Shown: positions 3,179 through 29,490 of the stretch, one piece after another
Numbering within the stretch: position 1 is the stretch's first letter
Layout of the letters: every line of letters starts with the position of its first letter
Source: Coriobacteriia bacterium
GTDB taxonomy: Bacteria; Actinomycetota; Coriobacteriia; Anaerosomatales; SLCP01
Assembly: GCA_030603745.1 (NCBI GenBank)
Contig: JAUVXE010000007.1
Coordinates: 1-43,391 of the forward strand
Direction of reading: 5' to 3'
DNA: 43,391 bases
Notes under the pieces: model-generated
Database searches by the model: none
The model's input: only the letters and a program-made list of their open reading frames with translations
What the model was told of the DNA's origin: nothing
Made by a program: the position numbers and the translations under genes

Positions 3179-3253
3179 TGGAGCTGGCGGAGGGATTCGA
3201 ACCCACAACCTACTGCTTACAAGGCAGTTGCTCTGCCGTTGAGCTACGCCAGC
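3179..3253 (-). tRNA. tRNA-Thr (TGT)
   Basis: The minus strand starts GCTGGCGTAGCTCAA and ends CGCCAGC-T-CCA with a fully paired acceptor stem. The anticodon stem ACTGC/GCAGT encloses CTTGTAA, anticodon TGT. It lies just downstream of sigH, where many relatives place a tRNA or rpmG-secE-nusG. Confidence 0.95.
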
Positions 3254-24680: not shown

Positions 24681-24757
24681 TGGTCGGGATGGCGGGATTC
24701 GAACCCACGACCTCTGCGTCCCGAACGCAGCGCTCTACCAAGCTGAGCCACATCCCG
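24681..24757 (-). tRNA. tRNA-Pro (CGG)
   Basis: The minus strand starts CGGGATGTGGCTCAG and ends CATCCCG-A-CCA with a fully paired acceptor stem. The anticodon stem CTGCG/CGCAG encloses TTCGGGA, anticodon CGG. It is 77 nt with encoded CCA. Confidence 0.95.
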
Positions 24758-28790: not shown

Positions 28791-28872
28791 ATCGACCCCC
28801 GTCTGATGGCCCGTGCCGGGCGGATCCTCCGGCAATCGTAGCAGCACACGGTGTTCATCGGCATACCCGATG

Positions 28873-28901
28873 TTGCGGGTTGATACCCCTTGGGGTATTC
28901 T
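28873..28901 (+). promoter_or_regulatory. Promoter of the ferredoxin/selenoprotein operon
   Basis: TTGCGG (28873-28878) and TATTCT (28896-28901) are 17 bases apart. The spacer and the -10 are overlapped by the palindrome at 28883-28898, so a bound repressor would exclude polymerase. Confidence 0.5.
28883..28898 (+). promoter_or_regulatory. CsoR/CstR-family operator
   Basis: ATACCCCTTGGGGTAT is a perfect 7-2-7 palindrome of the G/C-tract type bound by CsoR-family repressors (copper-sensing CsoR, persulfide-sensing CstR; general form ATACCC-N4-GGGTAT). An imperfect second copy, ATACCCG-N6-CGGGTTG, lies directly upstream. No CsoR-family gene is in the window. Confidence 0.6.
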
Positions 28902-28936: not shown

Positions 28937-29140
28937 ATGACCACGTACCACATCGACCTGTCCATCTGCGACCGATCGCCGGGCTGTCCGGCACGCCGCG
29001 CATGCCCCCAGGGCGCCATCGTCCCGGTCGAGGGCGGAGCGTATCCGGGAGGCGCGGGGTACACAGTCATTGAAGAGCGGTGCACCGGATGCGGCGCGTG
29101 CATGAGGGCCTGCCCTGCCCGGGCGGTCTCCGCGCGATGA
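28937..29140 (+). CDS. Small ferredoxin-like 4Fe-4S protein
   Basis: A 67-residue protein. The C-terminal half has a complete CxxCxxCxxxCP motif (Cys49, 52, 55, 59) for one [4Fe-4S] cluster. The N-terminal half has Cys11, Cys17 and Cys23-Pro with wide spacing, so a second cluster would be atypical or lost. ATG 28937 is preceded by GAGGAGG. It is the first gene of a two-gene operon controlled by the CsoR/CstR-type operator. Its stop overlaps a possible start of the next gene, whose preferred start is 12 bases further on. It probably supplies electrons to the selenoprotein or its substrate (inference). Confidence 0.85.
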
Positions 29141-29151
29141 AAGGGGTCCCC

Positions 29152-29490
29152 ATGACCGATCCGAACGTCGTCGTCGACGTGTTCGACCTGCCCAGCCAGA
29201 CCGCGTGCTACAGCGGCGGATGAGGGCCCTCGTGGTCTCCGGAGGAGATCACCGAGATCATCCGCGTCGAGATGGAGCGCCGCTTCGGCGACGCCGCGAC
29301 CATCCGCTACCACGACGTCGGTGAGGAGTCAGTGCGCGCGGAGCACGCAGCGGTCCTCGACGAGATCGACCGGAAGGGGCTGCTCTACCCGGTCACCGTG
29401 ATCGGCGGCGTGCCGGTATACGACGGCGCGGTGTCCTATCCGGGGATCTTGCGAGCCGTGCGCGAGCGCCTCGAGCGCACGCGCGCCTGA
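29152..29490 (+). CDS. Thioredoxin-like selenoprotein with in-frame TGA (Sec24)
   Basis: A 112-residue protein if the TGA at 29221-29223 is read as selenocysteine. Read through, the frame gives CYSGG-U-GPSWSPEEITEI, a Cys19-x4-Sec24 redox pair, followed by a continuous thioredoxin-like fold ending YPVTVIGGVPVYDGAVSYPG. The layout recalls the YuzD-type disulfide oxidoreductases. Codon use and protein sense continue unchanged across the TGA. A bacterial SECIS-like hairpin follows at 29232-29252. The ATG at 29152 has AAGGGG five bases upstream; ATG 29137 is an in-frame alternative. If the TGA stopped translation, only a 23-residue peptide would be made. The Sec insertion genes (selA-D) are outside this window. 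Confidence 0.8.
29232..29252 (+). promoter_or_regulatory. SECIS-like stem-loop behind the in-frame TGA
   Basis: Arms GTGGTCTCC (29232-29240) and GGAGATCAC (29244-29252) form nine pairs (one G-U) closed by the loop GGA. The loop begins 17 bases after the TGA and starts with G. These features meet the published bacterial SECIS criteria (loop 3-14 nt, stem 4-16 bp, 16-37 nt from UGA, G in the first two loop bases). An outer CTC/GAG helix with one bulge can extend it. Confidence 0.7.

Follow-up and report, generated by a model that had tools for sequence, protein, structure and literature searches.

A conserved CsoR-type operator links a ferredoxin–selenoprotein operon to a putative CstR-like regulon of reductive thiol proteins in the Anaerosomatales

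The window, a stretch of 43,391 nucleotides from a Coriobacteriia bacterium of the order Anaerosomatales, contains a short operon in which a ferredoxin gene is followed by that of a selenocysteine (Sec) protein related to DUF1462/YuzD, and the promoter of this operon holds a palindrome which recurs in promoters throughout the order. From the DNA evidence it is well supported that this palindrome serves as operator for the one CsoR-family repressor encoded in the genome, and it is probable that persulfide or polysulfide, acting through this single CstR-like protein, derepresses a reductive and selenium-dependent regulon for the disposal of sulfane sulfur. With less assurance, although on balance we favour it, the regulon may be described more fully as one built for reduction, in which a ferredoxin-coupled Sec-YuzD protein, from a previously unlisted selenoprotein family, stands beside a CcdA-fed rhodanese–Sec-thioredoxin, and in which an N5 operator serves for autoregulation and an N4 operator for most targets. 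The operator, the single repressor, the membership of the regulon, the autoregulatory site, the selenocysteine and the thioredoxin fold are each supported by sequence comparison or modelling. In other words, two selenoproteins and a ferredoxin appear to be tied to a thiol-reactive repressor by a DNA site conserved across an order, which gives the Sec-DUF1462 family a testable function and suggests how sulfur-reducing anaerobes might handle persulfides without oxygen-dependent enzymes.

The site (Table 1) had been described in the initial annotation as a perfect palindrome lying inside the promoter and overlapping its -10 element. The arms are indeed perfect over 7 bp, but the TT centre means that the sequence is not strictly self-complementary, its reverse complement being ATACCCCAAGGGGTAT. 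The placement within the promoter is borne out, in that a -35-like and a -10-like hexamer are separated by a 17-nt spacer and the last three bases of the operator are the first three (TAT) of the -10. Across the 58 homologous promoters that could be aligned, the flanks of the operator are not conserved save for the TTG of the -35, which is the sole conserved block on its 5' side, and the -10 itself, which mostly reads TATACT, TATAAT or TATTAT. An imperfect second copy, also claimed to lie just upstream, is present in the letters, with two mismatches and an 8-nt gap, but it was rejected as a conserved element because its frequency in the 58 promoters is no higher than in shuffled sequence, and it is most likely a product of chance.

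Table 1. Features of the window, with operator-linked features elsewhere in the same genome (prefixed with their locus).
Feature	Position	Strand	Details
Upstream 'second copy', ATACCC-N8-GGGTTG	28863–28882	.	ATACCC at 28863–28868, GGGTTG at 28877–28882; judged chance
-35-like hexamer	28873–28878	+	TTGCGG
Putative CsoR-family operator	28883–28898	.	ATACCCCTTGGGGTAT; 16 nt, N4 class, ATACCCC-TT-GGGGTAT
-10-like hexamer	28896–28901	+	TATTCT
4Fe-4S ferredoxin	28937–29140	+	67 aa, 7 Cys; Pfam Fer4, 37.1 bits
Predicted Sec DUF1462/YuzD-like protein, thioredoxin fold	29152–29490	+	112 aa; C19-x4-U24 (CYSGGUGPSW)
In-frame TGA read as selenocysteine (U24)	29221–29223	+	Invariant in 63 homologues
SECIS-like hairpin	29232–29252	+	GTGGTCTCC-GGA-GGAGATCAC; about 10 nt 3' of the TGA
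Five tRNA genes	524–858, 3182–3253, 24684–24757	-	
csoR	L007:6272–6604		CsoR-family repressor gene
Operator of csoR (N5 class)	L007:6629–6645		ATACCCCTGGGGGGTAT; 17 nt
Operator of rhodanese-thioredoxin (N4 class)	L009:3884–3899		
Membrane-anchored rhodanese-thioredoxin	L009:3935–4642		In-frame TGA, ...TDW-U-PAC

A scan for the same palindrome through the whole 2.14-Mb genome, as had been proposed, returns five exact matches to ATACCCN4GGGTAT, all of them in promoters, where between 0.006 (dinucleotide model) and 0.045 (single-base model) would be expected by chance; the reversed pattern, used as a control, gives none in that genome. Exact scanning of 69 Anaerosomatales genomes places N4 sites in 67 of them, about 284 sites in total when the table is summed, and the reversed pattern is absent from all 69. 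Conservation of the palindrome upstream of homologous operons had been set beforehand as one of two points on which the assignment should stand or fall, the other being a CsoR-family regulator in the genome, and the exact operator precedes 58 of 63 homologous Sec-DUF1462 genes, with a single mismatch in two more. Two Sec-DUF1462 homologues from outside the order (L103 and L104, ca 34% identical and from another part of the class) have no operator, and neither does the Sec gene (L099) of genome G085. These counts come from exact matching, by which degenerate operators are missed. A looser scan, for TACCCN4GGGTA with up to two mismatches, matched 397 times per strand, fewer than the 659 matches of the reversed pattern, such that weaker sites are not callable and the exact sites alone were used.

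The genome contains one csoR-family gene, on contig 14, the product of which scores 92.6 bits against PF02583 (CsoR/RcnR, DUF156; cut-off 22.8), and the family of regulator called for by the palindrome is thereby present. Its own promoter carries a 17-nt variant of the site, of the N5 class, and a site of this class precedes csoR in 30 of the 33 copies examined. By exact search of nine genomes, the N5 site occurs once per genome in seven, in each case close to csoR, while G016 has a second N5 site before CcdA and G037 has none. Inverted repeats with a C/G run, the hallmark of the operator type, are found at the five N4 promoters and, in the 17-nt form, at csoR. Moreover, the only Anaerosomatales genomes without sites, G059 and G085 (94% and 96% complete, and from different families), are also without csoR. 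In all, five genomes of the order have no detectable csoR; the other three retain their sites, are 73–91% complete, and may simply have csoR unassembled. The association of site with csoR has a Fisher p of 0.0024 over 51 good genomes, a value to be read in the knowledge that related genomes are not independent, although both losses fall in separate families. Taken with the variant in the csoR promoter, the paired losses uphold the original assignment of the palindrome to the G/C-tract operators of CsoR-family repressors, and the repressor would presumably bind there.

The ferredoxin–selenoprotein operon itself is as first described. A search of 296 genomes of the class yielded 63 homologues of the Sec protein, all of them with TGA at the Sec position of the C-x4-U motif (at two of the homologous loci the matched stretch holds two TGA codons), and the ferredoxin accompanies 51 of the 63 by motif scan, keeping across the family an unusual first motif, CDRSPxCPxxRxCP. 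The hairpin 3' of the TGA has the stem GGTCTCC/GGAGATC and the loop GGA, occurs with the same sequence in nearly all of the 63 and is predicted in most. In two distant homologues the top pair changes from C-G to A-U with pairing kept. This conservation is only partly evidence for an RNA structure, since the same stretch encodes the nearly invariant WSPEEIT. A tRNA-Sec gene (72.1 bits) is found in the same genome, and the protein thus has the conserved in-frame UGA, the SECIS-like hairpin and the tRNA that are the features of a predicted bacterial selenoprotein. Rfam finds only tRNAs in the window. The protein matches PF07315 (DUF1462) at 28.0 bits (cut-off 25) and has no NCBIfam match. Its structural model (pLDDT 88.1, low at residues 18–23 in the active-site loop) adopts a thioredoxin-like fold, and the best match of the model in the PDB, S. 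aureus SA0789/YuzD (1xg8, E 1e-4), agrees with the Pfam assignment. A 2026 inventory of prokaryotic selenoproteins contains no DUF1462, YuzD, PF07315, CsoR or persulfide (PMC13188914), and among open-licence full texts no paper was found that combines selenoprotein with DUF1462 or with CstR.

Beyond this operon, the remaining N4 sites of the genome precede a thioredoxin and a DUF302 protein within the csoR cluster, CcdA, a membrane-anchored rhodanese-thioredoxin, and a Tat-signal 4Fe-4S protein with a cytochrome b. The rhodanese-thioredoxin is the second selenoprotein of the regulon (WUPAC), its Sec codon being TGA in all nine of the genomes compared. In these nine, the csoR cluster, the rhodanese–Sec-thioredoxin and the ferredoxin/Sec-DUF1462 pair are operator-linked without exception, and CcdA in six. 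Some members are not specific to sulfur: an SBF/ACR3-like transporter lies behind an exact operator in five genomes (L064, L108, L112, L115 and L120), a GlcD-like FAD-linked oxidase adjoins one in three (L060, L119 and L123), both being features of other genomes, and a CDF efflux gene stands beside the csoR operator. The usual markers of CstR regulons, namely SQR, TusA, persulfide dioxygenase and TauE, were not seen among the operator targets. Judged from their predicted functions, the thioredoxin–DUF302 pair, CcdA, the rhodanese–Sec-thioredoxin and the ferredoxin with Sec-DUF1462 form one reductive thiol system.

Three effectors had been suggested for the repressor: Cu(I), persulfide and formaldehyde. 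The last finds no support in the targets. For copper, the protein aligns without gaps across both cysteines to the copper sensor CsoR 4m1p and to 7mq1, a structure deposited as csoR which we take to be the CstR of S. pneumoniae. The Cu-ligand histidine of 4m1p is Ser in the repressor and Asn in 7mq1. Indeed, all csoR copies inspected have Ser or Ala at this position, and in several of them the preceding His gives way to Tyr or Phe, such that the C-H-C ligand set of Cu(I) is here C-S-C, which argues against copper and fits the pattern of CstR. A sensor of copper or some other soft metal, with the regulon as a copper or thiol-stress response, is very improbable in this light; such a reading would draw on membership of PF02583, on a weak similarity to RicR/CsoR, and on an HMA copper-chaperone-like gene adjoining the ccdA operator and the CDF gene noted above, but the HMA gene lies upstream of its operator rather than behind it, and no copper ATPase follows any of the exact sites characterised in the nine genomes. 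The two cysteines at CstR positions, which are conserved in the order, the missing His ligand and a rhodanese among the targets place the protein with CstR on sequence features and targets, although no NCBIfam equivalog takes it in by score, and its cysteines would be expected to undergo the di- and trisulfide chemistry by which CstR is defined. Rhodanese, thioredoxins and CcdA among the targets point to sulfane sulfur, and reactive sulfur, as persulfide or polysulfide, is the most likely effector.

Thioredoxin-fold proteins also serve against oxidants and metalloids, and two further readings have to be weighed with this in mind. Were the effector arsenite or a related thiol-reactive metalloid, the Sec-DUF1462 protein would be a metallochaperone akin to ArsD, which is found among its structural neighbours and as a sub-threshold Pfam match (E 0.14); a third soft ligand would be to hand in the C-terminal Cys, which is likewise conserved, and the SBF transporter is related to ACR3. 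The transporter, however, reaches only 101 bits against the ACR3 cut-off of 283, YuzD/SA0789 and not ArsD is the best structural match, no arsenic gene is among the targets in the window's genome, and neither rhodanese-thioredoxin nor CcdA has an arsenic function, all of which leaves this reading improbable. Somewhat less so, if still unlikely, is a general response to disulfide or oxidant stress, in which the two cysteines would answer oxidation (diamide, HOCl, O2) rather than sulfane sulfur specifically. Thioredoxin and CcdA are generic thiol reductants, and TTHA1953, the CstR-like CsoR protein found in Thermus, binds DNA less strongly once disulfide-linked, its binding not being lowered by NaHS (PMC10318464). 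Against this, the rhodanese domain, with its linkage to the operator in every one of the nine genomes, handles sulfane sulfur, and the CstR homologue YrkD loses DNA binding upon treatment with elemental sulfur (PMC9918477). Reactive sulfur is also in keeping with what is known of Anaerosoma tenue, a cultured member of the order that grows by respiration of elemental sulfur and thiosulfate, with sulfide as the product (PMC9686372). Parvivirga, another cultured relative, does not reduce sulfur compounds, and the tie to sulfur respiration is therefore not an absolute one. Overall, the initial proposal of a small system for reactive sulfur, copper or another thiol-reactive agent is sustained, with reactive sulfur favoured through the C-x-C pattern of the repressor and the targets.

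In the model that follows we infer the binding of the repressor, the identity of its effector, which way electrons flow and which substrates are reduced. The reduced repressor, with its two reactive cysteines, would sit on ATACCCN4GGGTAT, covering the spacer and the -10 and blocking RNA polymerase. Rising persulfide or polysulfide would link the cysteines, the repressor would leave the DNA, and the dispersed regulon would come on together: ferredoxin and Sec-DUF1462, thioredoxin–DUF302, CcdA and the membrane rhodanese–Sec-thioredoxin, along with, in the window's genome, the Tat-exported Fe-S protein and its cytochrome b. The repressor would restrain its own gene through the 17-nt N5 operator, with most targets using the 16-nt N4 form. 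Inside the cell, electrons would pass from ferredoxin to the presumably cytosolic Sec-DUF1462 protein; outwards, they would run from thioredoxin through CcdA to the rhodanese–Sec-thioredoxin on the outer side. Both branches would reduce sulfane sulfur to sulfide, by a reductive route rather than one of SQR and dioxygenase, such as might suit strict anaerobes.

Comparison with known systems places the regulon closest in kind to CstR/YrkD of Staphylococcus, Streptococcus and Bacillus licheniformis (PMC9918477), with which it shares the CsoR family, GC-tract inverted-repeat operators, two conserved cysteines without His at the Cu position, and a rhodanese among the targets; unlike theirs, it is dispersed and reductive, and includes two selenoproteins and a ferredoxin, while neither SQR nor a dioxygenase, TusA or a sulfite exporter was seen among its targets. 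TTHA1953 of Thermus thermophilus, a CsoR-family regulator of Sox genes, likewise has a dispersed regulon that includes a thioredoxin and a sulfur theme, but its operator, TACNNTACN4GTANNGTA, is without a G/C run and its targets are Sox oxidation genes (PMC10318464). With the copper sensors CsoR/RicR it has in common the family and the kind of operator, and in M. tuberculosis, too, the cso site overlaps the -10 and -35 (PMC10318464); the differences lie in the ligand set and targets set out above. The Sec protein shares fold and Pfam family with SA0789, and differs in the selenocysteine of its C-x4-U motif and in its operon with a ferredoxin. The closest parallel to the outward branch is TsoB, the rhodanese/DsbD fusion-like selenoprotein of the Tso system, which likewise comprises a rhodanese, a DsbD/CcdA membrane part and a Sec-thioredoxin, but as one fused gene in an operon, whereas here the parts are separate genes under a common operator and score 24.9, 42.8 and 45.4 bits, each in a protein of its own, against the NCBIfam cut-off of 805 for TsoB.

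A search of plasmids with the repressor returned matches all below 60% identity and with generic names. In three other genomes, tandem CsoR domains are apparently fused within one open frame (L118 of G037, L067 of G081, and G129:C10:8299-8814), the frame being some 200 aa in G037 and G081 and 620 aa in G129.
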